Positions 2,467 through 15,207 of a stretch of DNA of 60,167 bases are shown here, in pieces. Origin of the DNA: a virus; IMG/VR virus record IMGVR_UViG_3300017989_000015, positions 1 to 60,167 of that record; one strand, written 5' to 3'. Within the stretch, counting starts at the first letter, position 1; each line of letters begins with the position of its first letter. The notes below the pieces were generated by a model. The model ran no database searches, was not told the DNA's origin, and saw only the letters and a program-made list of their open reading frames with translations. Both the position numbers and the translations under genes were made by a program.

Positions 2467-4070
2467 CGAGCGCCCCCCACGTAGGTCAGCTCTACCAGCG
2501 CCCGTAGTGCCCGCAATTCATCCTCTAGCCCTTCTTCCGTCTCTTCCTCTTCCGGCGCCTCTTCTGATTCCTCTTCCTCGCCCTCTGGATACATCTGCTC
2601 AATTGTCGCTGTGATGATATCCGAGGTCAGGCCAAGCTGAGGCTGCTGCAGTGCGATTGTCGTCAGCACCTTCTGATCGATCATCCCCGTATCCCAGAAT
2701 GTGCCCAACGCCGCCACCATCACGTCAAAGTCCACATCGACCACCGAGCCAAGGCTGACGATGATCTCTCTGTTGTAGTCCTCTGGAATTTGACCCTGCT
2801 CGACTGCCGCATCCATCACGATTGTAAAGATGTCCTCGAACACAGACCGCCATAGGTTCTGATATTCACCCCACGCTCGAAGAGTAGGTCTCATGGCGAC
2901 CTCAGCGATGGCGCGATTCTGGGCCATGTCCGTCCTGCCTAACATGAAGGCAGGCGACTGTGTTCCCGTCGCCGCTTGTCCAATCAGCATCATACTGTCT
3001 TGTGCAGCATCACTCGCCCCAGTGGACATCGGCAGCCGCCTGGTATTGACGGCCTCATTCTGGACGCGGTAACTTCCTGCGCCTGGAGGCGGGTTATCCT
3101 CATAATTCTGGCCGACCGTATTCAAGCCGCTCTGTAGCTGGCTCTTCAGCATATCGACCATGCGCGGCCCACCCTTGACCTCATACTCCTCAATGACTGA
3201 GGCCACATTGCGAGCCACTGCTGCACGGTCAGTGGCAAACTGCTTGTATGCTTTGGCCCAGGGCTCAGAAGCGGTACAGAGCGGCCAGCCTCGGCCATCC
3301 ATCCCATAGAGGGAAACGTGAATGACCACCGGCACCAGCTCGGCATTCTGATCCGCTCTATCAGCACTAGGCGGCAACTTGACCTTGGCGAGGTTATCTG
3401 GGCCTGCTAGCCAGTCAGGATAGTAGCGGGTCTGCTGCTTCGGCCCGTTGCCTCGGTCTTCCATCCACTCGCGCTTGTAGTAGAGCGGCTGATCCTTGTC
3501 GCCTTCCATCGAGATAATCTCAGTAATCTCTTCTGTCTTGATCGTCCTAATCGAGCATTCGCCGTTGACCTTCTTCTTCCAGATGACCAGGAATAGCTCG
3601 CCATCTGTCAGGAGGCTGTTCGAGAGCTTGCGAATATGCCGGTCGCCCAGAATGCGCCGGTTCGCCTTGCTCGTCCAGAAGGCGTCCCATATCTCCTGCT
3701 CTTGCTCTTCCGCCTTCAGTGAGACCTCTTGCCCGAATCCATAGGCCGTCCACAGTTTGGTCATGGCCGAGATGAGCGGATCATACACTGCCCACCACCG
3801 TGCCCATTGAACGATCCTCAATCGATCCTTCTCATTCGGCCCAGCGGTACTCCCGAACGGGCTGACGATGACCTCATTCTGTTGGAGCCTCTGTAGCCAT
3901 GAGATCATACGCGGATCAAGCTCGCTCAACAGATGTTGTGACGTCATATGCCAGGGTGCTTTCCGATAGGCCGCTTCGTAGCCTGCTGCCTTGGCCCTTA
4001 GCGTCGTTACCTCCGATGCCGTCTGGACAACGGGACGCTTCTCTGCCCACCACTCACTCAGACGACTCAT
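2463..4070 (-). CDS. Portal protein
   Basis: 535 residues, normal for a siphovirus portal. It has a helical stem-like middle, a Trp-rich N-terminal region (LRIVQWARWWAVYDPL) and a strongly acidic C-terminal tail of Glu runs. It would form the dodecameric DNA channel at one capsid vertex and dock the terminase. Position supports this: downstream of terminase and immediately before the MuF-like gene, with 4-nt overlaps on both sides. Confidence 0.88.
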   Translation of the reverse strand: MSRLSEWWAEKRPVVQTASEVTTLRAKAAGYEAAYRKAPWHMTSQHLLSELDPRMISWLQRLQQNEVIVSPFGSTAGPNEKDRLRIVQWARWWAVYDPLISAMTKLWTAYGFGQEVSLKAEEQEQEIWDAFWTSKANRRILGDRHIRKLSNSLLTDGELFLVIWKKKVNGECSIRTIKTEEITEIISMEGDKDQPLYYKREWMEDRGNGPKQQTRYYPDWLAGPDNLAKVKLPPSADRADQNAELVPVVIHVSLYGMDGRGWPLCTASEPWAKAYKQFATDRAAVARNVASVIEEYEVKGGPRMVDMLKSQLQSGLNTVGQNYEDNPPPGAGSYRVQNEAVNTRRLPMSTGASDAAQDSMMLIGQAATGTQSPAFMLGRTDMAQNRAIAEVAMRPTLRAWGEYQNLWRSVFEDIFTIVMDAAVEQGQIPEDYNREIIVSLGSVVDVDFDVMVAALGTFWDTGMIDQKVLTTIALQQPQLGLTSDIITATIEQMYPEGEEEESEEAPEEEETEEGLEDELRALRALVELTYVGGAR

Positions 4071-4462
4071 GCCTTCCCCCCAATGATATAGATAGTGTCT
4101 GTCTCATCCCGGCACTTGGCTAAGGCTTCTTCCAGGCTACCAAGCGGTGTGTCTGCCGAGTAGCCGTTCCCGTTACCCTTTCCAGGAGAGACGTAGAAAC
4201 AGGAGTCGGGATCATCCGCCCCGATCTCGGCCAGGTAACGAGTTATCTTCTCGCCCGTCTCCTCCAACTGAGCGAAGTACGAATCTCTGTCCATACCCAG
4301 ATCGTCTACTATCAAAGGTATGTCCATACCCAGATCGTCTAGTATCAAAGGTGAGCCATGAGCAACGAGAGGCTCTTCTACGTCGCGCACAAAGGCCCTC
4401 TTCGGCATGGCCGCGGCTGCTACCGCTAGCACTACCGACCTCAGAAATCCGCGTCTATTCAT
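4067..4462 (-). CDS. Exported protein with Tat-like signal and beta-helix N-cap motif
   Basis: 131 residues beginning MNRRGFLRSVVLAVAAAAM, a twin-arginine-type leader. The middle has two copies of LDDLGMD/VDDLGMD produced by a 33-bp tandem duplication. The C-terminus, FYVSPGKGNGNGYSADTPL, resembles the N-cap of the two parallel-beta-helix proteins encoded elsewhere in this genome, but the helix itself is absent, so this may be a truncated relative. It lies between portal and packaging genes. Function unknown. Confidence 0.75.
   Translation of the reverse strand: MNRRGFLRSVVLAVAAAAMPKRAFVRDVEEPLVAHGSPLILDDLGMDIPLIVDDLGMDRDSYFAQLEETGEKITRYLAEIGADDPDSCFYVSPGKGNGNGYSADTPLGSLEEALAKCRDETDTIYIIGGKA
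4288..4353. repeat. 33-bp tandem duplication
   Basis: Two adjacent 33-base units, each starting TGTCCATACCCAGATCGTCT, differ at only two positions. Being a multiple of three, they keep the frame and duplicate an eleven-residue segment of the Tat-like protein. The near identity points to a recent slipped-strand event. Confidence 0.9.
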
Positions 4463-4682
4463 CTTCCACCTCTATTCCCATGCCGGACACCCAACACCCG
4501 ACCTTGAGTAGCCATATGCCTAGCCGGACGCGCCAGTCGCGCTTGACGTGAACCACCACCTGCATCGTGATCTCCTTCGCCAAGTCGCGCTCGCAGATAC
4601 ACGCTGCCCGTCGCTGTAGCTTTGGCCCGTTCGGATGCTGCTTTTCGTACTCAGCTCCCCACTGCTCCAGCGGACTAGCCAT
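4455..4682 (-). CDS. Small hypothetical protein
   Basis: 75 residues from MASPLEQW; this ATG has a GGGGGGAG ribosome site. A hydrophobic stretch (LGIWLLKVGCWVSGMG) near the C-terminus could be a weak membrane segment or a buried helix. It overlaps both neighbours by 8 nt. No family recognised. Confidence 0.65.
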   Translation of the reverse strand: MASPLEQWGAEYEKQHPNGPKLQRRAACICERDLAKEITMQVVVHVKRDWRVRLGIWLLKVGCWVSGMGIEVEDE

Positions 4683-4977
4683 TACTCCCCCCCTCAGCGC
4701 AGTCAGGGCACATCGCGCCATAAGTATCCTCGCTGAGTATCCAGCGCCAGCCGCAAGCCTCAGCACAATCCGCATGATTAGACCGCTGATCCAGCAGGTT
4801 CTCCCCGCAGACGATCAGCGTCGCCGCACACCCCTCCGTATGGTTGACGCAACGGATGGTCGATTCATAGTAGCTCGTTCTTATCGTCTCACAAGCCTGC
4901 TTGACCATGATCTCCCCCCTGAATCCTCGCCTCTTGATCTCAGCGATGTAGGCGTCTAGTTGGCTCGTGCCGTCCAT
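4675..4977 (-). CDS. Small cysteine-rich protein
   Basis: 99 residues from MDGTSQLDAY. Several cysteines (CVNHTEGC, CAEACGW, CPDCAEGG) suggest one or two zinc sites. It overlaps the upstream glycosidase-like gene and the downstream 75-residue gene, so it belongs to the packaging operon. I do not recognise the family. Confidence 0.7.
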   Translation of the reverse strand: MDGTSQLDAYIAEIKRRGFRGEIMVKQACETIRTSYYESTIRCVNHTEGCAATLIVCGENLLDQRSNHADCAEACGWRWILSEDTYGAMCPDCAEGGSNG

Positions 4978-6011
4978 ATCACATTCCCCCAATCTCCGCA
5001 GGCGCAGTAGGCACACCACTGAATCTCTTCGTTCCCCGGCTCGATGAACATCTGCCCGACGTACTGAATGCCGCCGATCTCTTGCTGATATTCAGGCGAG
5101 ACCGGTGAATATCCTCTGGCCGTCCCTGCCTTGAGCAATGCCGCATTATAATTGAGAGGGATGATGTGCTGCTGCCCAATCTCAGCCATGACCTTACCGA
5201 TGTCCGCTGGCGAGCTTGCCAGCCAATCGACTATTCGCTTGGTCACAGATTCGTTATGGGCAAAGCTCGGCCAGGTCTCGTCCTGCCAGGTGAAAGGCGT
5301 TGCGGCTATAATGGCCTCGTCCTTATCCCACTTCTCTGATGTCTCCTGTAACTGGCGCACATACTCTGCCTCGTCGCCCTTGAGCTGGTAGCGCCAACCG
5401 CTTGTCTCTGGGTTGCCGTTCTCGTCGATGCCGGTCTCGCTGATGATGATGCGAGGCTCTGCGTATCCAGACTGAGCGAGAATCTCCAATACCCTGCGGT
5501 ATCTGCCCAGCCAGTAGGTATCCCAGTTCATCGTCTTATAGCCGTACTCGTGCAGGCCCAGGTAGTCGCCGATCCCTTGTCCTAGAATAGGCCAGAGGTT
5601 CAGTTCGGGATTGCCCACGCTGAAGCAATAGGAGAGCGTCTGGTGTCCTATCTGGTTCAGGTAGTACGTCCGCCACCTCTCGAATTGCGCAAGAGCATTG
5701 GCCTCTTCTTCTGTGACAATGTATGGCTCATTCGGCCCTTCGATGATCTGGCACCATCGGCACTTTGCTAGCTTCGGTTCGGCCATCGCCATCCACTCAT
5801 CCGCTCCCTGCTTGCCCTTGTAGATCAACTGCTTGTCAGGCTCGCCTTGCCCGAACCAGAGCCGCCCGATGTAGGTCATCCCTCCCAGCGGTGGCCCATC
5901 GTAGAGGTCGGGATGCATGATCTTTAGAAGGTTGACTCGTGACCGAACGATCTCCGTCTTGAGCCAGGGCTCGATGCCCGGCTTTTGGATATGGAACGTG
6001 AGCTTCGCCAT
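4956..6011 (-). CDS. Clan GH-A-type glycoside hydrolase-like protein
   Basis: 351 residues. The start is placed at MAKLTFHI, behind a GGAG site. Two motifs match the TIM-barrel clan GH-A: EGPNEP, whose Glu would be the acid/base, and, about 95 residues on, IISETGID, whose Glu would be the nucleophile. No signal peptide is seen, so the protein would be a virion component or a lysin released by holin. It sits between the large terminase and portal genes, an unusual place for a glycosidase. It could act on host surface polysaccharide; the substrate is unknown. Confidence 0.7.
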   Translation of the reverse strand: MAKLTFHIQKPGIEPWLKTEIVRSRVNLLKIMHPDLYDGPPLGGMTYIGRLWFGQGEPDKQLIYKGKQGADEWMAMAEPKLAKCRWCQIIEGPNEPYIVTEEEANALAQFERWRTYYLNQIGHQTLSYCFSVGNPELNLWPILGQGIGDYLGLHEYGYKTMNWDTYWLGRYRRVLEILAQSGYAEPRIIISETGIDENGNPETSGWRYQLKGDEAEYVRQLQETSEKWDKDEAIIAATPFTWQDETWPSFAHNESVTKRIVDWLASSPADIGKVMAEIGQQHIIPLNYNAALLKAGTARGYSPVSPEYQQEIGGIQYVGQMFIEPGNEEIQWCAYCACGDWGNVIWTARAN

Positions 6012-6012
6012 C

Positions 6013-7626
6013 TTAATAGTCTCCAATCCGATATTGGCTTTGACGCATATTCGACCTCGGCGCCGCGGCTTGTTCTGCGTTCAGTAGAATAGGCCCAAAC
6101 ACACCATGAAGGATGCTATCGCTCAGGTCAGTCGAGCGGCCTATGTCCGACCTTACGTCCTCCTTGGCAATTACGCTCTTCTGATTGCGAAGGTTGACGC
6201 CGGCACTCCTCATTGCTAGTAGCTCCATCTGTAACTCTTCGTTCTGTGGAATCCAGAGTCCGATGTCCCCTTTGCCGCTCAAAAAGTCGGCCAGCCCAAA
6301 CCAGGCGGCAGAGCGCCAATTCGTGAACCCAAATATGCCCGCTTCGTCCATAAGCTCTGTGCGATTCCCTGCCATAAAAGCAATCGCCGGACAGCCCTGC
6401 GTCCTCAACCAGTGCAGGATACCTGCGCCAATACCGATGCCGTCAACGCTCACCGTCGCCTGTGGATTCTTCCGCCACTGAGCCAGCACATAGGCGGCAA
6501 GCTCCATCGTGGCGATGTTCGGGTCTTCCGCGTGTTTGATCACTTCTAGGTCTCCAACGATATGCCCATCATAGATAAAGGCAATCGTCGAGCTATCATT
6601 CCCAGCCAGCCCGCCGCCCACGTCTATGCCTATGTGCGTCATCACACTAGCCGAGCCATGGTCCCGCGTCCGGCCTCGTGCCTCCCATTCTGCATGTAAC
6701 TCATTGCTCCTGGTAATCCAGCGCAGGGTCATCAGGCCATGAACGCTACCTTCTGAGAACTGGCCCTCGACGCGATTTTGAAACTCGGCACTCTCTTCGC
6801 CCCATTGCTCGCGCCTTTGATCGATCCATTCCTGAGCCACTCGCCCCGCCGCGACCGCCTCTTCCTTGGTAACGTGGCGTACCCACCAGTCGGTGTAACC
6901 TCTTTGCTGACTGTGGATCTGGTAGAATCTGCCCACTGGATCGCCTGGCGTACTGATTGCCAACACGAACGCTCGCCTATCCATCCCTACGCCAGCCTGA
7001 GAGAAGACTCCTTCCATCGCATCCCACATCGGATCCGGGATGGCCTTGGCCTCATCAAAGATGACCAGCACTTCCTTCGCGTGACCGCCCTCCATGCGGT
7101 GATGGTCCGAACTAGTCAACGCCGCTGCGTACCCATGCTTCAGGTTCAGCCGCTGATTCAGCAGTTCCTTGCCGATCCGGTAGGGCTGTGGGCGCGCAAT
7201 AATATCCCAGTTGAGATTCCTTGCTACCAGATGGATCTCCGGCCATAGAAAGAGGACGAGCTGCGCCCAGGCGGTGGCCGTCGTAAGCGCCTTCCAGTCG
7301 AGCCCGAGTGCGTCTCGTGTCAAGGCGAACCAATGAATAACCCCTGCTGCGATTCTCGTCTTGCCGAGTCCATGAATCCCTCTTGCTGATACGCGGCTCT
7401 CAGTAATCAGACTGCTGACGATCTCTAGCTGATAATCCGTCGCCCCTTGCTGGCTGTTCTCTTCAGGCCAGATAATACAATCGCGAAAGAAGCCCGCTGG
7501 GTCGTCGTAGTATTTCTCCCCAAACTCCTGGAAAGGCGTCTTGGGTTCCTGGAATGTGCCAGCCTCTTTGCGCCGGTCAATCTCGCGATCTATGAGCACT
7601 AGCTCCATCTCAGCTAGGGCATTCAT
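6013..7626 (-). CDS. terL: Terminase large subunit
   Basis: 537 residues. The ATPase half has a Walker A-like GIHGLGKT near residue 85 and a Walker B/catalytic Glu in VLVIFDEA. The nuclease half carries GIDVGGG and VSVDGIGIG, supplying conserved acidic residues of the RNase H fold. It pumps DNA into the prohead and cuts concatemers. It overlaps the small-subunit gene by ATGA. Length and order are normal. Confidence 0.95.
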   Translation of the reverse strand: MNALAEMELVLIDREIDRRKEAGTFQEPKTPFQEFGEKYYDDPAGFFRDCIIWPEENSQQGATDYQLEIVSSLITESRVSARGIHGLGKTRIAAGVIHWFALTRDALGLDWKALTTATAWAQLVLFLWPEIHLVARNLNWDIIARPQPYRIGKELLNQRLNLKHGYAAALTSSDHHRMEGGHAKEVLVIFDEAKAIPDPMWDAMEGVFSQAGVGMDRRAFVLAISTPGDPVGRFYQIHSQQRGYTDWWVRHVTKEEAVAAGRVAQEWIDQRREQWGEESAEFQNRVEGQFSEGSVHGLMTLRWITRSNELHAEWEARGRTRDHGSASVMTHIGIDVGGGLAGNDSSTIAFIYDGHIVGDLEVIKHAEDPNIATMELAAYVLAQWRKNPQATVSVDGIGIGAGILHWLRTQGCPAIAFMAGNRTELMDEAGIFGFTNWRSAAWFGLADFLSGKGDIGLWIPQNEELQMELLAMRSAGVNLRNQKSVIAKEDVRSDIGRSTDLSDSILHGVFGPILLNAEQAAAPRSNMRQSQYRIGDY

Positions 7627-8153
7627 TCAGGCCAGTTCTCGTCAGCCATAATCTCTGATGCTAATTTCCCTATCCTGATCCCTTCTCGCAGGGCAATGAT
7701 CTGAGCATCTGATAGACTCGCATAGTCTACGTTGACGTTGAAGCTCTCCATCTTGGTTGGCTCGCCTACAATGTCGCGAATCTCCCCGTTCGCTTCTAGC
7801 ACCATATCCAGGTCGCCTTTCGCCCAGGCTGCCCGCTGAACCTCGAAGGCGGTGGCGAGCATGTGGCCGTAGTACTCTTTAATCTTCTCAGCCGACTGAT
7901 CCCGCCATTCTCCCTTTAGTTCTTCGATGTCACGCTCGATGGTCTTCCTATCATAAGGATTGCCTGTCCTTGGGTTCACGGTATAGGATGGATTTGGTTC
8001 TTGGTATCCGTCGCGGCCCGCTCGTGTCTCCTGAGATAGTGCCGTCACAATCTCATGCGTCTTGAGACCACGAATCAGCAGCGACGCTATGCGCTGCCTG
8101 CGTACCTCGTGCATATTAGGTGACCATCGTCTATCTATCGCTCGTACGGACAT
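7623..8153 (-). CDS. Terminase small subunit (putative)
   Basis: 176 residues: an N-terminal HTH-like stretch (RRQRIASLLIRGLKTHEIVT), a basic middle and a helical C-terminus, consistent with a DNA-recognising small terminase subunit. It is directly upstream of terL with a 4-nt overlap. The start follows a strong stem-loop (8170-8193), and the spacing to a clear ribosome site is poor, so the true start or its control is uncertain. Confidence 0.8.
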   Translation of the reverse strand: MSVRAIDRRWSPNMHEVRRQRIASLLIRGLKTHEIVTALSQETRAGRDGYQEPNPSYTVNPRTGNPYDRKTIERDIEELKGEWRDQSAEKIKEYYGHMLATAFEVQRAAWAKGDLDMVLEANGEIRDIVGEPTKMESFNVNVDYASLSDAQIIALREGIRIGKLASEIMADENWPE

Positions 8154-8169
8154 ATATATGGGAGTCCTT

Positions 8170-8193
8170 TATAGGAGGCCCGTCCCTCCTATA
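8170..8193 (-). promoter_or_regulatory. Perfect stem-loop before the terminase genes
   Basis: TATAGGAGG and CCTCCTATA form a 9-bp perfect inverted repeat around a 6-nt loop, between the transporter stop and the terS start. It has no U tract. The left arm itself contains an AGGAGG ribosome-site-like sequence, so pairing would hide it. It may be an RNA processing site or a translational control element (inference). Confidence 0.6.
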
Positions 8194-8196
8194 TAT

Positions 8197-8829
8197 TTAC
8201 AAAATGGGCTTATCCTTGACCAGATAGATCGTTGGTAGGCTAACGATGGTTACGACAGCCTTCCAGAGGATTTGTCCTGCCACGATACTCATGGCCGCCA
8301 AGAAAGGTATGGGTTCTCCTCCTAGGATCGGAGGGAGCAGAACAAATGCCAGAACCCCGAATAGAAACGAATCAAGCGGTAGACTGATCGCGTTTGATAA
8401 CAGTACGGCGACCCATTGCGGCCCTCGATCCTTGAACACATGGTAGACCTCAGTGTCTACCAATTGGCTAATCACCTCAGAGATGATGCTTCCTGCCGTG
8501 ACTGCCGGGACGATCGCGAAGACCTGTCCCCATTGCTCCCCGAGGGCAAAGAAAGGAGGGAAAGGCATATTCGCTACCCATGCCAGATAGCCTGCTTGGA
8601 CCACATTGAAAATACCGCACATGATGATCACTGCGCGCGCCCATTCTTTCCCCAGTCTCTTGTGAAGCAAGTCTCGTAGCGTGAAAGTCAGGGCAAAGAC
8701 GAAGGTGCCCGCAGGGAAGGTGATCCCTCGGTAGAACACGAGCTTCGTCGCTCCGATGTCTGCAATAGCCTGACAGATCACATAGCCCCCCACTAGGACT
8801 ATGATGGTCCAGATAGTCGCTTTCTTCAT
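8197..8829 (-). CDS. yhhQ: YhhQ-family 7-cyano-7-deazaguanine (preQ0) transporter
   Basis: 210 residues with five to six hydrophobic helices. It has features of the YhhQ/VUT (DUF165) family: an early IADIGATKLVFYRG stretch, FTLRDLLHKRLG, and the SQLVDTEVYHV and NAISLPLDSFLFG motifs. Family members import preQ0, the shared precursor of queuosine and of 7-deazaguanine DNA bases. The gene overlaps the QueF-like gene by 4 nt, and DpdA is two genes upstream, so it probably feeds phage DNA modification. Phage-encoded members with this role have been reported. Confidence 0.88.
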   Translation of the reverse strand: MKKATIWTIIVLVGGYVICQAIADIGATKLVFYRGITFPAGTFVFALTFTLRDLLHKRLGKEWARAVIIMCGIFNVVQAGYLAWVANMPFPPFFALGEQWGQVFAIVPAVTAGSIISEVISQLVDTEVYHVFKDRGPQWVAVLLSNAISLPLDSFLFGVLAFVLLPPILGGEPIPFLAAMSIVAGQILWKAVVTIVSLPTIYLVKDKPIL

Positions 8830-9161
8830 GTCATACCTCTTTCGATAGTTGCGCTCACCGGCGCATGTACGGTTGTCCGTGCCCGTGCAGTCACGCGCAA
8901 CGGAATGTCACCAAGCGCCTTCGACAACACATCGAAAACGCGACGGGCCATATCTTCTACGGTCATGGCTTCGGTAGCTAGCCCGTTGAGCCAATCCTCG
9001 AAAGACTCGAACTCTAACAGCGTGTCCCCTGGTCGGTAGGTAATATCTAGGACTCCCCAGAAGGGCCGTTTTCCTATAGAGCAGAGTGTCGAGAACGGCG
9101 GCGTATACTCGATCAAATCTACGCAACTATCGTTGGCGATCGTCTTTATATTGTCTGACAT
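8826..9161 (-). CDS. Short QueF-like protein (T-fold)
   Basis: 111 residues from MSDNIKTIAN. FSTLCSIGKRPFWGVLDI aligns with the QueF segment that contains the catalytic Cys (TSLCPxTGQPDF). The Glu of the substrate site is kept in LEFESFEDWL, but the lysines of the NADPH-binding QueF motif are replaced, and the usual catalytic Asp appears to be Phe. Its size matches QueF-L proteins that make archaeosine-type bases without NADPH. It may convert preQ0 or preQ0-DNA to another 7-deazaguanine; the chemistry is uncertain. It overlaps its neighbours on both sides. Confidence 0.75.
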   Translation of the reverse strand: MSDNIKTIANDSCVDLIEYTPPFSTLCSIGKRPFWGVLDITYRPGDTLLEFESFEDWLNGLATEAMTVEDMARRVFDVLSKALGDIPLRVTARARTTVHAPVSATIERGMT

Positions 9162-9961
9162 ATGAATCCTATCTCCTTTGCTGACTTTGGAAATAATGGG
9201 CTGAGCATAGGCCCTAGCCACTTGGAGGGAATGAAGGTCGAGCATCGTTCGTATAATGTGTCCAGGCCGACCTTTTCTAGCTCTTCGCGCAAAACCTTCG
9301 CGTTATGCAAAAGCCCGTATTCGGCCTTGATCTCGAATCCCGCCTCAGTGAGTCCGGTAACCAATTCGCTGCGCTTCCATTCGTAGACGTGGGCAGCATA
9401 CTGGGTATCATAACCGTCTTGGCCTTCGGGCGTATTGGGGCAAGTAAGGTATAACATAGCCCCGTCCTTGCTAACCGCACGACATTCTCTCAGAGAGGCC
9501 ATGCCCAGATCACGGTGCATATGCTCGATGGAACTGGTATAGACAAGGAGGTCAAATCGTTGGGGGAGCAGACTAACAGCCATCTGTGCTACGTTTGACT
9601 CTATGAATCTCACCGGGAATGGGTAGTAATCATCCTTTATGGGCTTGCCATCCGTCACTCGCTTCTCTAGGAACTTGGCGTTCTTTGGCGCAATGTCTAC
9701 GCCCGTATAACTCCCCAAGTCTTTTCGTTGGTAGCGCAAGAGAGGGAGCAAGAGGCCGCGCCCACAGCAGACATCGAGCAAAGCCGTGCCCTTCTTGGCC
9801 CAACGGATAATCTGCTCATGCTGTATATAATTCATCACATCGAGGGCTGAGAAGAAGCCGTCCCCGAATTGGCGATAGAAGTTGCGCATCTGGTAAGTCG
9901 TTGCCAATATCTCGCGCACGTCCATTCCTGGCTCTACTTTATAGACAATCTTTTTACTCAC
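9146..9961 (-). CDS. Class I SAM-dependent methyltransferase in the deazaguanine cassette
   Basis: 271 residues, GTG start. Motif I is LLDVCCGRG near residue 60, followed by an acidic residue in YTGVDIAP, then SSIEHM and LYLTCPN, typical of Methyltransf_11-like enzymes. It has no DNA-methylase DPPY/NPPY motif, so a small molecule or modified base is more likely than adenine or cytosine. It lies between dpdA and the QueF-like gene with overlaps. Methylation of a preQ1-type base is one possibility (inference). Confidence 0.8.
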   Translation of the reverse strand: MSKKIVYKVEPGMDVREILATTYQMRNFYRQFGDGFFSALDVMNYIQHEQIIRWAKKGTALLDVCCGRGLLLPLLRYQRKDLGSYTGVDIAPKNAKFLEKRVTDGKPIKDDYYPFPVRFIESNVAQMAVSLLPQRFDLLVYTSSIEHMHRDLGMASLRECRAVSKDGAMLYLTCPNTPEGQDGYDTQYAAHVYEWKRSELVTGLTEAGFEIKAEYGLLHNAKVLREELEKVGLDTLYERCSTFIPSKWLGPMLSPLFPKSAKEIGFICQTI

Positions 9962-11051
9962 CTTGTAACTCTCCTATCGCCAAGGCTACATTGGGAGGCT
10001 TGTCAGTGGTATCTACGAGGAATAACTTCATTCCTCTATCCGCATCACTCCAATTGATCCCGTTTGAGGTGTCGGCTAAATGCAGGCGTGGTCCCACGCC
10101 TGCCTGTGCCAGGGCCGCGACGCTCATATTACCTCCACGAGAACTTCCTGTACCATCTCCATCCGCCCCCGTGACTAGATGAGCCTTCAATCCCGAAGGC
10201 TCATCTTCGCGTCCTGGAATCCTTACCTCGCCATGTCGTTTTCTCAACCATCGTTCTGCTAGCATATAAGATAATGCCGAGATTGCGCAGATCTTCGCCC
10301 TTTCGTTGCGTTCTCGGTCTATGAAATCCATTGGTTCGAATCCTAACGATCGAATGAGGGCCGAATGCTTTACTCCACTTTTGACGTCCCCCAGCCCTAC
10401 CTGTACAAATCGCCCTCGCTTCTCATCGAATAAGGGCACCCTCCCGTATCGAAATCCTGAGCCCCAAGAGGACGAGTCTACCGAGTACCAGGGAAAGCTC
10501 TTCATCACGTTCCAGGAGGTAAGCCCAAAGCCATGAAACACGCTCTCTCCCTTGGCAATCTGATAGCACTTGGTGATCCAAGCCATGATCTCATCACGTC
10601 GGGCCTGCATCCCTGCAACGCCCAAAGCAATATAGGGATACCGTTCTATATAATGCTCCAACCATAACCATTCTTCGAGAACATGAAAGCAGGGCAAGGG
10701 CGTCGTGCCCATATCTTCCATGATTTGCTGGTTTCGCCAGGTTGCTTCTGCGTCTTTGATGACGTCCAGATTCGCATAGCTCGAGAATAAGTGCTTCCAT
10801 CGCTTGATCCATTCTACATACTTGGGAATTGTTATCGTGACGCCTTGTGTCATAGCAGAGAAAGCCCCCGAATCAGCGAATACGTCTGGATAGGGCTCTG
10901 TAAAATACTTGGCGAATAATTGGTCCAGATCGGTGTCCTTGTAGTACCAGTAAGATAGCAAGATACGAAGGCGTAGTCCATTTCGTACAGCACCACGGCT
11001 TGCCCAGCCGTGGTGCTGTGGATCGCTATCTGCCAAATGGATCTTGGCCAT
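9954..11051 (-). CDS. dpdA: DpdA-like DNA 7-deazaguanine transglycosylase
   Basis: 365 residues from MAKIHLAD. The fold is tRNA-guanine transglycosylase-like: FADSGAFSAM near residue 60, LGVAGMQ near 145, FHGFGLT near 174 and YSVDSSSW near 190, the last containing a candidate catalytic Asp. Phage DpdA proteins exchange guanine in DNA for a 7-deazaguanine. About 90 C-terminal residues are Gly/Ser-rich and unlike the catalytic domain. The frame is open further up to an ATG at 11231 with a good ribosome site, but MAKIHLAD is the expected family start. Two strong palindromes lie in the C-terminal part and one near the start. Confidence 0.8.
   Translation of the reverse strand: MAKIHLADSDPQHHGWASRGAVRNGLRLRILLSYWYYKDTDLDQLFAKYFTEPYPDVFADSGAFSAMTQGVTITIPKYVEWIKRWKHLFSSYANLDVIKDAEATWRNQQIMEDMGTTPLPCFHVLEEWLWLEHYIERYPYIALGVAGMQARRDEIMAWITKCYQIAKGESVFHGFGLTSWNVMKSFPWYSVDSSSWGSGFRYGRVPLFDEKRGRFVQVGLGDVKSGVKHSALIRSLGFEPMDFIDRERNERAKICAISALSYMLAERWLRKRHGEVRIPGREDEPSGLKAHLVTGADGDGTGSSRGGNMSVAALAQAGVGPRLHLADTSNGINWSDADRGMKLFLVDTTDKPPNVALAIGELQGE
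10082..10103. repeat. Perfect palindrome inside dpdA (22 bp)
   Basis: GCAGGCGTGG and CCACGCCTGC are perfect inverse complements separated by two bases, in the Gly/Ser-rich C-terminal extension. No U tract follows on either strand. Confidence 0.85.
10177..10206. repeat. 12-bp perfect inverted repeat inside dpdA
   Basis: AGATGAGCCTTC and GAAGGCTCATCT pair perfectly around a 6-nt loop. It lies about 75 bp from the previous palindrome, in the non-catalytic C-terminal extension. Confidence 0.85.
10987..11019. repeat. 14-bp perfect inverted repeat at the 5' end of dpdA
   Basis: ACAGCACCACGGCT and AGCCGTGGTGCTGT pair perfectly around TGCCC. It lies within codons 11-21, so in mRNA it would form a very stable hairpin shortly after the start codon and could slow early translation. 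Confidence 0.9.
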
Positions 11052-11073
11052 TTTTTCAAATCCTTCCCATTGC

Positions 11074-11100
11074 TGAGTCCCGCTTACGAAGCGAGACTCA
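11074..11100. repeat. Imperfect palindrome just upstream of the dpdA start
   Basis: TGAGTC-x-CGCTT pairs with AAGCG-x-GACTCA around ACG: 11 bp with one mismatch. It lies between the ParB-like stop and the chosen dpdA start. With the three palindromes inside dpdA this makes four in about 1 kb. The interval 11052-11199 otherwise holds a run of nine C on the plus strand and no separate gene. Confidence 0.8.
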
Positions 11101-11199
11101 GGATTCTTGCTCTCCCCGTGCCCTTCGGGCCAGCTTGCCAAATATATCCCCGCGTGAGCCCTTAGCGAATTCACTAGTCGCCCTGCCCCCCCCCAGGCC

Positions 11200-11829
11200 T
11201 CAGGATAGCCCAGTGTCAAATAGAGAAACATCGACCGCCTCCAGAAGCGTCTGTACCTTGGCCGCCCCGTCCACGCCCGGCGCCTTCTCCATAAGAGAAT
11301 AGAAATAATCCAAGGTGTCCGGAGAGACCTGGATGCGGATAAAGGGCCAGAAGTCGCGCTCCTGGGGCTCTCCATACTGTGTTGCTAGATCATCCAAGTC
11401 AGGCGCCGCGGAAGCGGCCTTATCCAAGATGCCCAATAGTTCCTCCTCATAGAACATTCCAGAAAGATCAAGCTTTGCATCGAGGTCGGCTACAATCTGC
11501 TGGGCATCCCAGGAAGCCAGCTCCGCCGTGCGATTGTCGAAGTAACTCAATATCTGTTTCTGTTCATCGGTCAGGCCCGTCCGCCGTACTGCGATGATCT
11601 CATCCCCGTCTGCCTCGATCACGCGCACCTTCTCGATCCCTGCCTCAGCCGCCGCGTCTATAACGCCATTCCCAGCTAGGATGACGTCGTTCTCATCAAT
11701 AACGATTGACCTGGCTGCACCCACTTTGCGTAGTGAGTCCGAGATCATACCGATATTTCTGGGGCTGTGAATTCGTGGGTTCGTTGGATCCGGCTTGAGA
11801 TCACCGATATGGTCTACTTGTTTTGGCAT
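11200..11829 (-). CDS. ParB-like nuclease-domain protein
   Basis: 209 residues. The N-terminus has ParB/sulfiredoxin-fold signatures: LKPDPTNPRIHSPRNIGMI, then IVIDENDVILAGNGVIDAA. A linker (LTDEQKQILSYFDNRTAEL) is typical of phage ParB-like proteins that associate with DNA methylases or modification genes. It directly follows a promoter with a 20-nt leader and a GGAGGG site, so it is the first gene of the deazaguanine-terminase operon. Its role is unknown; DpdB of bacterial 7-deazaguanine clusters is also ParB-related. Confidence 0.82.
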   Translation of the reverse strand: MPKQVDHIGDLKPDPTNPRIHSPRNIGMISDSLRKVGAARSIVIDENDVILAGNGVIDAAAEAGIEKVRVIEADGDEIIAVRRTGLTDEQKQILSYFDNRTAELASWDAQQIVADLDAKLDLSGMFYEEELLGILDKAASAAPDLDDLATQYGEPQERDFWPFIRIQVSPDTLDYFYSLMEKAPGVDGAAKVQTLLEAVDVSLFDTGLS

Positions 11830-11844
11830 AATCCCTCCTGACTC

Positions 11845-11873
11845 ATTATAGCATATTCTGGGCTATATGTCTT
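11845..11873 (-). promoter_or_regulatory. Sigma70-like promoter, deazaguanine cassette
   Basis: Minus-strand AAGACA (11868-11873), 17-nt spacer, TATAAT (11845-11850). The -35 is the weakest of the set. It overlaps the end of the HNH gene and starts transcription just before the ParB-like gene. Confidence 0.75.
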
Positions 11874-12141
11874 GGTTCATAATGACGCCTTCCCATAATT
11901 CACCTTGATAAACATAGCCGTAGCGACTCCGCAGGATGTCTATATGGCGCTCTCTGGCTGCTCGATTGTGCGCCTCTCTGTGACAGGCGGTACAGAGCGT
12001 GACAAGATTCTCGATGCACCAGGCTCCGCGATGCCCTCGACCTACTATGTGATGAACCTCCTGCGAATAAGCCCCACAGTCAATACAGCAGTTATCATCC
12101 CTCTCCAGGGCTGCCAGTCTCAGCCGGGTCTGTCTCCTCAT
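11863..12141 (-). CDS. HNH endonuclease
   Basis: 92 residues. CIDCGAYSQEVHHIVGRG provides the first CxxC pair and the HH of the HNH motif, and ENLVTLCTACHREAHN gives the Asn, the second CxxC and the last His. All canonical residues are present. Small free-standing HNH proteins in phages may act in packaging or as homing nucleases. It is not beside the terminase genes, which argues slightly for homing or host-DNA attack. It overlaps the upstream gene by 47 nt. Confidence 0.88.
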   Translation of the reverse strand: MRRQTRLRLAALERDDNCCIDCGAYSQEVHHIVGRGHRGAWCIENLVTLCTACHREAHNRAARERHIDILRSRYGYVYQGELWEGVIMNQDI

Positions 12142-12319
12142 CTCGTGCCTCCATATACTCTACCGCTCGACGCCGCGGGCAGTCCACAACCTGCGCTCCG
12201 CTCTGATCTCGTTCCCAATGCTCACAATCAGAGCACCACCCGTCGCAAGTTAGCGCCAGCGCCAGGTCCGCCACGATCCGCTCGGCGGTGGTCAATTTGT
12301 CAGTAATCGGAATAGTCAT
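12095..12319 (-). CDS. Small cysteine-rich protein
   Basis: 74 residues from MTIPITDKL. CDGWCSDCEHW plus a later Cys (VVDCPRR) could bind zinc. The ribosome site is weak; the gene overlaps the upstream and HNH genes. No family recognised. Confidence 0.6.
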   Translation of the reverse strand: MTIPITDKLTTAERIVADLALALTCDGWCSDCEHWERDQSGAQVVDCPRRRAVEYMEARDEETDPAETGSPGEG

Positions 12320-12437
12320 AGTCCGCATCCGTCTGGTCATAATCTACAAGGTCCTCAAGCGTCGCCCCGGCAAAAAGGTTGAAAATGCCCACAAGGGCAG
12401 AGACCAAAGAGGCCAATGCGCCAATCAGCGCGAACAT
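12300..12437 (-). CDS. Small single-pass membrane protein
   Basis: 45 residues from MFALIGALASLVSALVG, behind a GGGGGCG site. It has one hydrophobic helix and an acidic, Tyr/Asp-rich tail (DYDQTDADYDYSDY). Function unknown; its form suits a membrane-acting accessory protein. Confidence 0.6.
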   Translation of the reverse strand: MFALIGALASLVSALVGIFNLFAGATLEDLVDYDQTDADYDYSDY

Positions 12438-12438
12438 A

Positions 12439-12786
12439 TCACGCCCCCTTCGGCTTGATCGACATACCCAATGCCAACTCAGATCGCACAACCAGCCGAT
12501 CAAGATCATCCCCTACCGGCTCGCCAGTGACAATGTGGCCAATGGCAAGGCTCAGCAGCGGCTCTATCTCTGACAGGCGGCTACTCAGCTCCTCTATCTC
12601 GGCGTCATAGGCGCGAGCATTCCAGCCGTCCGCTGCCGCCTCCTTTGATCGCCATGGCATCGTTATTACTGGACACTCACTGCAAGCTACTCGCCATCCC
12701 GTCGTGACCTGGCCTGGTTCCCAGGCCGAGTAGTACGCCTTCTTCCCACAAAACGGACATTCTCTCAGCTCTTCTAGCGCATTCAT
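12439..12786 (-). CDS. Lar-like zinc-ribbon protein
   Basis: 115 residues. The N-terminus, RECPFCGKKAYYSAW, then VACSECPV and GWNARAYD, matches the restriction-alleviation Lar pattern (CPFCG...C..C...WN.R). Lar proteins modulate type I restriction, which would fit a genome with other anti-restriction genes; many phage relatives are untested. The C-terminal half is a leucine-rich helix. ATGA overlap with the next gene upstream. Confidence 0.7.
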   Translation of the reverse strand: MNALEELRECPFCGKKAYYSAWEPGQVTTGWRVACSECPVITMPWRSKEAAADGWNARAYDAEIEELSSRLSEIEPLLSLAIGHIVTGEPVGDDLDRLVVRSELALGMSIKPKGA

Positions 12787-13611: not shown

Positions 13612-14318
13612 TTCTCGCTCCTCGCTTGGCTTGCCGCCAAGCGCTTGGCTTGCGCCTCAGCCACCATCTTTTGGTACGGCGTCCGCGTACCGGTGGCCAC
13701 TGGGCCAGCCTCTGTCGTCGTTACGACATACGGCCTACCAGGTATTTGCCGAACATTGTCATGGCCAGCAGATTTACGCCACGCCTCCCGCGTCGGCGTC
13801 ACGCAGCCGTCGCGCGTTAGCGCGCGATTCAATGAGTGGGAATTGCCATAGTAGAACGACGTGATGGGCGATCCGTCCGGGCCCATCACGGAAAACGCGT
13901 TGTTCACGTCGTTCCACCGGCGAATGCGCCCGTCGGCGCATCGGGCCTCGTGTACGTGCGGGTCACTGGTGGATGCCGTATCCGCCCAAGCCCCCACCGC
14001 ATCCTGGCCGTGCTTGACTACAGCGTGACTGTCTGGGCTCAATGTCTCGGGGCGTTGTACCACGGCGGTCGCTTGAGTTGCCATTCGCAAGCGGGCGCGC
14101 GCGTTCATCTGAGCGTATGGGCTTGTGAGTCCCTTCGCCGCGAGTAGGCCCGTGCCGATTGTCGTGATTGCGCCACCCCCACCACTGCCACCAGCAGGCC
14201 CTTGCCACTCCATGGTGGCCACACCCTGCGCGTGACTGGCGGGAGCTAGTATTAACAGGAGAAACACCACCAAGATCATCGCTCCAATTGTTAGTACGCC
14301 CCAAATGATCCTACTCAT
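13608..14318 (-). CDS. Exported or membrane-anchored protein
   Basis: 236 residues. The N-terminus is a long hydrophobic segment ending ILAPASHAQG, compatible with a signal peptide cleaved after AHA-type residues or a membrane anchor. Then come a Gly-rich stretch and a soluble domain with two cysteines (ARCADG, RDGCVT) that could pair outside the membrane. No family recognised. An envelope role such as superinfection exclusion is possible (inference). Confidence 0.65.
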   Translation of the reverse strand: MSRIIWGVLTIGAMILVVFLLLILAPASHAQGVATMEWQGPAGGSGGGGAITTIGTGLLAAKGLTSPYAQMNARARLRMATQATAVVQRPETLSPDSHAVVKHGQDAVGAWADTASTSDPHVHEARCADGRIRRWNDVNNAFSVMGPDGSPITSFYYGNSHSLNRALTRDGCVTPTREAWRKSAGHDNVRQIPGRPYVVTTTEAGPVATGTRTPYQKMVAEAQAKRLAASQARSEK

Positions 14319-15207
14319 TTTGCTCCTCCTCTGTTAGATAATCGAACAGCCGCTTCAACTGCCATGCCTTTGCCGCGTCCCATGCCGCGTCCCTTGCCGC
14401 GTCCCTTGCCGCGTCCCTTGCCGCGTCCCTTGCCGCGTCCCATGCCGCGTCCCTTGCCGCGGCCCTTGCCACGCCCCTTGCCGCGGCCCTTGCCGCGTCC
14501 CTTGCCGCGTCCCTTGCCGCGGCCCATTCCACGGCCCTTGCCGCGTCCCTTGCCGCGGCCCTTGCGGCGTCCCATGCCGCGTCCCTTGCCGCGGCCCTTG
14601 CCGCGGCCCTTGCCGCGTCCCTTGCCGCGTCCCTTGCCGCGTCCCTTGCCGCGGCCCTTGCGGCGTCCCATACGGCGGCAAGCTCTTCTTGTGTCGCATG
14701 TCCATTGGCGTAGCGCCGCGCTACCTCTATTGCTTTCCGTGGCCGGGCATCATCTGGATATGCCCGCTCGAATATCGGTAACACACGCTCGGCACAGTCT
14801 GAGGCGAATAGCCGCCACTTGCGCGCGGACATGCCACCGACCTTGCGCGGCAACCGGCCTTGATGCCCGTTTACTTTGTCACCGTACTCTTCTACGTCGC
14901 CCTTAAACTCGAGCTCATAGAGAACCCCCTCCTCACAGCAGTACGCCAGGAGGGACTCAATTTCTTCAAGGCTGCCGTGATACCCTTTTTCGCACTCGAC
15001 TAAATCATCGACGGAGTCAGTCCACTCGCCAGGTTCGTACTCTACCCAGCCGCCGTCGCCGTCGCAGCGATCACACCAGGCGCTGTCCTCTGTTCCTCCC
15101 TGCCCGTGGCAAAGCGGGCACTCCACCCATCGCTCTGTCGGCAAAGGCCATGCGAACTTTGCGTACGGCGACTTCCCGTCTGGCGATAACCATTTATAGT
15201 ACGTCAC
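14311..15207 (-). CDS. Zinc-finger protein with long AARD/AAWD repeat domain
   Basis: 298 residues. The first part carries ECPLCHGQGGTEDSAW and CDRCDGDGGW, a DnaJ-type CxxCxGxG zinc region. Residues about 180-280 are almost entirely AARDAAR/AAWDAAR units, predicted as one long alanine-rich amphipathic helix. Similar tails occur in uncharacterised phage and bacterial proteins, some annotated as putative immunity proteins. The repeat is coded by GC-rich 12-nt units. It overlaps neighbours at both ends. Confidence 0.75.
   Translation of the reverse strand: MTYYKWLSPDGKSPYAKFAWPLPTERWVECPLCHGQGGTEDSAWCDRCDGDGGWVEYEPGEWTDSVDDLVECEKGYHGSLEEIESLLAYCCEEGVLYELEFKGDVEEYGDKVNGHQGRLPRKVGGMSARKWRLFASDCAERVLPIFERAYPDDARPRKAIEVARRYANGHATQEELAAVWDAARAAARDAARDAARDAARAAARAAARDAAWDAARAAARDAARAVEWAAARDAARDAARAAARGVARAAARDAAWDAARDAARDAARDAARDAAWDAAKAWQLKRLFDYLTEEEQNE
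14372..14670. repeat. About 300 bp of imperfect 12-nt repeats
   Basis: Near-perfect 12-nt units, one per Ala-Ala-Arg-Asp, with variants changing Asp to Ala or Arg to Trp. The array leaves all frames on both strands open, explaining long spurious frames here. Such tracts expand and contract readily. Confidence 0.9.

Follow-up and report, generated by a model that had tools for sequence, protein, structure and literature searches.

A probable salvage-fed cassette for 7-deazaguanine DNA modification, with an uncharacterised methyltransferase family and an aberrant QueF-like enzyme, in an uncultivated tailed phage

The virus record IMGVR_UViG_3300017989_000015 of IMG/VR is 60,167 bases long and was analysed in its entirety (referred to below as the window). 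It encodes a terminase, a portal and head-maturation genes, and represents an uncultivated tailed phage of 60 kb. Five genes on its minus strand, which very probably direct the incorporation of a salvaged 7-deazaguanine into the phage DNA, are the subject of this work. They lie in the order ParB-like protein, DpdA, methyltransferase (MTase), QueF-like protein and YhhQ, with consecutive overlaps of 32, 8, 16 and 4 nucleotides (nt), and the terminase genes follow downstream:

11200..11829, minus strand: ParB-like protein, 209 amino acids (aa), first gene of the cassette (PHROG 620, E=3e-24; neighbourhoods; alignment)
9954..11231, minus strand: DpdA-type DNA guanine transglycosylase, 425 aa from the ATG at 11231 or 365 aa from that at 11051 (PHROG 887 and 7068; tblastn; alignments; start site)
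9146..9961, minus strand: class I S-adenosylmethionine (SAM)-dependent MTase, 271 aa, GTG start, 8-nt overlap with the DpdA gene (Pfam Methyltransf_23; 40 viral loci; alignment; AlphaFold2)
8826..9161, minus strand: QueF-like T-fold protein, 111 aa, 16-nt overlap with the MTase gene (profile, alignment and AlphaFold2 model)
8197..8829, minus strand: transporter for queuosine precursors of the YhhQ/COG1738 family, 210 aa, sharing 4 nt with the QueF-like gene (Pfam Vut_1; NCBIfam TIGR00697)
7623..8153, minus strand: probable terminase small subunit (by position only, before TerL as in the related loci L003 and L136; without a PHROG match)
6013..7626, minus strand: terminase large subunit (PHROG 2, E=1e-18)

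The original prediction had described overlapping genes for DpdA, an MTase, a QueF-like protein and YhhQ with a ParB-like gene in front, and PHROG, Pfam, NCBIfam, profile and model comparisons found all of them on the minus strand. The start of the QueF-like gene was corrected to 9161. The limits that the prediction gave to the cassette, 8197-11051, had to be redrawn, as DpdA more likely starts at 11231 and the ParB-like gene (11829-11200) was counted in the cassette because a gene of this kind is a neighbour of DpdA in relatives too (adjoining or near it in L002, L003, Mycobacterium phage Typha, Cellulophaga phage phiSM, L085 and the Faecalibacterium prophages described below). The ATG at 11231, which overlaps the end of the ParB-like gene, is most likely the start of DpdA because the N-terminal sequence that it adds, FLYLTLGYPEAWGGAGR, matches L002 and a Shine-Dalgarno-like GGAGG lies 6 nt upstream; the ATG at 11051 is likewise preceded by a possible ribosome site and is still a possible start. 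Substitutions relative to related loci concentrate at third codon positions, most strongly in the MTase, DpdA and YhhQ genes, and the cassette genes are therefore under selection.

DpdA matched the PHROG 'queuine tRNA-ribosyltransferase' families (E=9e-47 and 6e-39). In a tblastn search that matched 231 phage records it was 35.5% identical over 94% to Typha gp3, and it was 30% identical to the DpdA of Escherichia phage CAjan. Both catalytic aspartates, D120 (DSGAF) and D252 (VDSSSW), were invariant in a seven-row alignment that included CAjan, Typha and phiSM. Closer proteins, 57-58% identical by tblastn, are encoded in L002 and L003, where the order is ParB-DpdA-YhhQ followed by packaging genes, with neither an MTase nor a QueF-like gene. 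A further feature of the 425-aa protein is a set of 'KIHLADSD'-like ('hLAD') segments that resemble the first strand of DpdA and recur before and after its core, at residues ~28, 63, 382 and 402; they are found in L002 and L007 also, and in L085 a separate open reading frame (ORF) of 56 aa ahead of DpdA (4713-4883) carries two of them.

The MTase matched Pfam Methyltransf_23 (E=9e-10; Methyltransf_23, 11 and 25 were all above cut-off), and its AlphaFold2 model, with a predicted local distance difference test score (pLDDT) of 91, matched the class I Rossmann fold; the glycine-rich SAM motif is present. Relatives were found at 40 viral loci, nearly all at 44-68% identity, and at six loci in bacterial genomes. 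A 28-row alignment showed an invariant D-CCGR core and, beyond the SAM motif, invariant TYQMRNFY-Q, GFF, D-MN-QH, YPF, YTS--EHM and YEW. Gene clustering around the viral loci gave DpdA at 31 of the 40, mostly adjacent to the MTase, followed by FolE (23), QueE (18), QueD (17), the ParB-like protein (17) and YhhQ (10). The family was absent from 50 other DpdA records, in a search that had no positive control of its own and used an alignment that detects the family elsewhere, and a search of 50,697 phage records for close relatives, as DNA or protein, gave none; matches in phage isolates (Stenotrophomonas phage AXL3 and others) were partial, at 23-27%, with DpdA not nearby. Given its occurrence with DpdA at 31 loci, its absence from the 50 other DpdA records and the lack of a close relative among the phage records, the MTase most likely serves DpdA as a dedicated partner. 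It founds a previously uncharacterised viral family, new here and nearly always beside DpdA, and we are confident that the window MTase belongs to the deazaguanine cassette. Two other leads were set aside. Kinship with cap guanine-N7 methyltransferases (best sequence match 1ri1, E=1.6e-4; profile 1.6e-6) was unsupported as anything special, since many class I enzymes tie structurally. An apparent MTase-QueF fusion in L009, considered as a 'Rosetta stone', may be an assembly error, as a frame change interrupts DpdA there and the MTase lacks its C-terminus.

The transporter matched Vut_1 at 100.3 bits (2e-28; cut-off 27.2) and TIGR00697 at 81.5 bits (7e-23; cut-off 50.95), and the match spans the whole protein. 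Pfam searches of the record found neither QueC nor QueD, and tblastn searches for FolE, QueE and canonical QueF gave noise only. Because the record has no FolE, QueD, QueE or QueC, the phage must obtain its 7-deazaguanine precursor from elsewhere, and the lack of synthesis genes together with a YhhQ above the curated thresholds indicates that the cassette is built for salvage. We put the probability that it is a salvage-fed deazaguanine DNA modification cassette at about 0.9. The predicted deazaguanine cassette with a possibly methylated base accordingly holds up in its core, a salvage-fed system with a putative methylation step, as judged from sequence, gene context and the roughly 40 MTase loci; the part that named preQ0 is taken up below.

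How the precursor is supplied varies between relatives. The nearest MTase relative, in L085 (68%), lies in the order ParB-DpdA-MTase-QueD-QueE-FolE where the window has ParB-DpdA-MTase-QueF-like-YhhQ; this pairing of a related MTase with QueD-QueE-FolE suggests that the supply modules are interchangeable. On a tree of the MTases the supply type switches five times between salvage and de novo synthesis, and at least two of these switches are forced by well-supported branches. Within the family, supply alternates between de novo synthesis through FolE/QueD/QueE, mostly with QueC missing, and salvage through YhhQ or QueT, to which a QueF-like gene is often added. QueC was present in 3 of the 19 de novo records with the MTase versus 30 of 46 QueD-containing DpdA records without it (Fisher p=3.4e-4, a value that is indicative only, because the records include relatives of one another as well as fragments). 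The de novo MTase loci with QueC are L086, L088, L094 and L132, the last a fourth case beyond those 3 of 19.

Scanning of bacterial genomes recovered two Faecalibacterium prophages (L133 and L136) with the order ParB-DpdA-MTase-QueF-like-QueT-terminase, and a Gemmiger contig (L131) with ParB-DpdA-MTase-QueT. L133 lies on contig NZ_PRLD01000001 of Faecalibacterium APC923/51-1. The identity of QueT was established by Pfam in the similar locus L099, which like L131 has QueT only. The three host genomes (draft or binned, except the complete Faecalibacterium sp. I4-1-79) contain QueA and lack QueD and QueF, a pattern of salvage of 7-aminomethyl-7-deazaguanine (preQ1) (PMC6593275). QueT is specific for preQ1, whereas YhhQ proteins carry both 7-cyano-7-deazaguanine (preQ0) and preQ1 (PMC11625349). 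In the viral contig L092 a preQ1 riboswitch (RF00522, 42.5 bits, 3087-3130) lies directly ahead of the YhhQ gene; for the operon of the window, Rfam gave no match at E<=1 in 8000-12500 and none at the gathering threshold across the window. At QueT-only loci, and in hosts without QueD and QueF, preQ1 is the sole precursor that the MTase is likely to meet. These relatives point to preQ1, and its aminomethyl group is the most likely methyl acceptor. The prediction that preQ0 is imported was not supported as it stood: given the dual specificity of YhhQ, the relatives with QueT and the riboswitch of L092, the base brought in could be one other than preQ0.

Alone, the QueF-like protein fell below the cut-offs of PF14489 (2e-5) and TIGR03139 (3.5e-6), and as a single query it found no viral relative. 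Against a profile of its relatives from which it had itself been excluded it scored 53.7 bits (2000 shuffles, at most 9.0), and with its nearest relative also excluded 24.2 bits (2000 shuffles, at most 7.8), so that it is clearly a member of a genuine family. Its AlphaFold2 model (pLDDT 91) best matched the archaeosine synthase QueF-L (5jyx; Z 16.2, root-mean-square deviation (rmsd) 1.6, 104 residues aligned, 16% identity), then QueF (4f8b; Z 15.0) and FolE (14.1), with FolE and other T-fold enzymes at Z 12-14. Since these also match well, the fold alone fails to fix the reaction; nor does it separate QueF from QueF-L, which lie within 1.2 Z units. Among deazaguanine enzymes, a profile search from the protein reached QueF-L only (E=0.005).

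In the sequence of the QueF-like protein, the catalytic cysteine of QueF is kept and invariant (C27, equivalent to Cys55 of Bacillus subtilis QueF), as is the substrate glutamate (Glu69). The general acid Asp62 is replaced by Phe in the window and by Tyr or other residues in relatives, QueF His96 is replaced by Val, Ile or Leu, and all nine rows of the family alignment share a histidine near the C-terminus (His99). QueF binds NADPH through the motif E(S/L)K(S/A)xK(L/Y)(Y/F/W); at this position the window protein reads EFESFEDW, compared with ESKSLKLY in L124 and ELKSLKYY in phiSM, and the motif is lost. The zinc site of FolE, Cys-x-His-His, is not there either (CSIGKRPF versus CEHHLLPF or CEHHMLPF in phage FolE). 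A QueF-like gene occurred in 9 of 40 records, all nine with a transporter and none with FolE, QueD or QueE (L126 has, in addition, a QueC-like gene); counted by MTase loci, it was present in 12 of 17 with salvage and 0 of 19 with de novo supply. The L124 protein is a canonical-looking QueF, encoded at 4951-5331 about 0.6 kb ahead of a viral YhhQ gene.

In the order of steps that we infer, YhhQ would supply the infected cell with a queuosine precursor, be it preQ1, preQ0 or both, and DpdA, with the ParB-like protein probably acting as its DNA-targeting partner, would swap guanines of the phage genome for the imported base shortly before packaging. The MTase would add a methyl group to the 7-substituent, with the 7-aminomethyl amine as its most likely target, either before the base is inserted or once it is in DNA, giving a base of the 7-(methylamino)methyl-7-deazaguanine type. 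The QueF-like protein may process the salvaged base through its Cys/Glu/His set, so making preQ0 or another salvaged form usable. Restriction enzymes that read G would fail to cut DNA modified in this way, which would shield the phage from bacterial defences. For this mechanism as a whole, from salvage and exchange to methylation of the aminomethyl amine and QueF-like processing, we consider the odds to be even. More tentatively, and with odds that are rather against it, the MTase and the QueF-like protein may together make an undescribed DNA base, the latter performing a T-fold reaction on the salvaged 7-deazaguanine that is neither nitrile reduction nor amidination. Several observations weigh against the proposed mechanism. 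QueC is missing from 16 of the 19 de novo records with the MTase, which would fit a carboxylate acceptor, 7-carboxy-7-deazaguanine (CDG). The best fold matches of the MTase are tied, with the tRNA carboxyl-methyltransferase CmoM on top (Z 17.4), and the fold cannot separate N- from O-methylation. Use of preQ1 by the window phage would be transferred from relatives whose DpdA has diverged. Finally, the QueF-like gene is kept in prophages with a preQ1-specific transporter, in which it is hard to see what a nitrile enzyme would act on.

The carboxylate could be methylated to leave a methyl ester in DNA, with the QueF-like protein of salvage phages acting as a nitrilase that converts imported preQ0 to CDG. 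The de novo records with the MTase, which mostly end at QueE, the position of CmoM among the structural matches, and a protein with a cysteine nucleophile and no NADPH motif would all suit such a scheme. Yet four de novo MTase loci keep QueC, a host QueC could finish the pathway for phages without one, and QueT-only loci supply preQ1, which known enzymes do not convert back to CDG. The QueC-containing and QueT-only relatives weaken CDG as the single common substrate of the MTase, and we consider this scheme unlikely.

An amidinotransferase of the QueF-L type, turning preQ0 in DNA into deoxyarchaeosine (dG+) whose amidine is then N-methylated, draws on QueF-L being both the closest solved structure and the sole deazaguanine enzyme reached by profile, and on the occurrence of dG+ in phage DNA (PMC6884629). 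The general-acid aspartate common to QueF-L and QueF (PMC5485725) is, however, missing from the window protein and its relatives, and more than 20 records have the MTase without any QueF-like gene, which makes this reaction quite improbable. The QueF-like protein might instead be an ordinary phage QueF (preQ0 to preQ1), with the MTase serving an unrelated role, for instance on a canonical base, tRNA or protein. Phage proteins first named QueF-L can indeed make dPreQ1 (Dp-1 and HVTV-1; PMC6884629), the QueF of HVTV-1 is a close viral fold match, and the MTase matches generic families and resembles, at 23-27%, phage MTases away from DpdA. An ordinary QueF is at odds with the loss of the NADPH motif, Asp62 and His96. 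An unrelated role of the MTase is at odds with its link to DpdA, which is seen at some 40 loci although the supply genes have been exchanged repeatedly; this combination too seems improbable.

The presence of dPreQ0 in the DNA of CAjan depends on dpdA, and such modifications shield DNA against restriction enzymes (PMC6884629). The window shares with the systems of CAjan, Mycobacterium phage Rosebush and Enterobacteria phage 9g a DpdA with both catalytic aspartates, linked deazaguanine genes and, as in some of them, a transporter, but lacks FolE, QueD, QueE and QueC and has, in addition, a class I MTase dedicated to the system and a QueF-like protein of non-canonical type; no methyltransferase is mentioned in the published survey of DpdA systems (PMC6884629). 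The phiSM group also keeps genes for DpdA, a ParB-like protein and QueF together and has a predicted methylated product of the preQ1 type, but it makes its own precursor (FolE, QueC, QueD, QueE). Its gp53, a CxxCxxCC protein next to QueF, and gp55 are both unlike the window MTase (no match), so that the methylation step proposed here would be a separate invention. In 2023, Cui et al. reportedly described 7-(methylamino)methyl-7-deazaguanine (mdPreQ1) and an enzyme, DpdM. QueF-L of Pyrobaculum calidifontis shares with the window protein its fold, cysteine nucleophile and glutamate and the absence of an NADPH site, whereas the window protein lacks the general-acid Asp and a His and carries, close to its C-terminus, a different His that is invariant in its family. 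Bacterial QueF likewise shares fold, catalytic Cys and substrate Glu, and differs in its NADPH motif, Asp62 and His96. YhhQ, a preQ0/preQ1 importer, is here phage-borne and inside a modification operon.

In kind, the cassette is a familiar system; what sets it apart are its uncharacterised MTase family and its aberrant QueF-like enzyme. It would mark a branch of phages that modify their DNA from salvaged queuosine precursors and add methylation through a class I MTase, tying the protection of phage DNA to a micronutrient for which gut bacteria compete and which they share. The QueF homologue, which lacks the QueF residues and carries a new conserved histidine, may widen the known T-fold reactions, and the prophages in cultured Faecalibacterium (L133 and L136) make the chemistry directly testable.

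Salvage cassettes of another composition were seen in L123, L125 and L126, where DpdA is accompanied, in place of the MTase, by QueC or a fusion of a glutamine amidotransferase with QueC, by putative glycosyltransferases, which Pfam confirmed for L126 alone, and by a QueF-like protein and YhhQ, which suggests sugar-bearing deazaguanines in phage DNA. In L085, glycosyltransferases, a sulfotransferase-like protein and three further methyltransferase-domain proteins surround the ParB-DpdA-MTase-QueD-QueE-FolE genes (3145-11911). Elsewhere in the window, 14311-15207 encodes a protein with a long repeat of the AARDAARDAA type, and the repeat is open in several frames on both strands.

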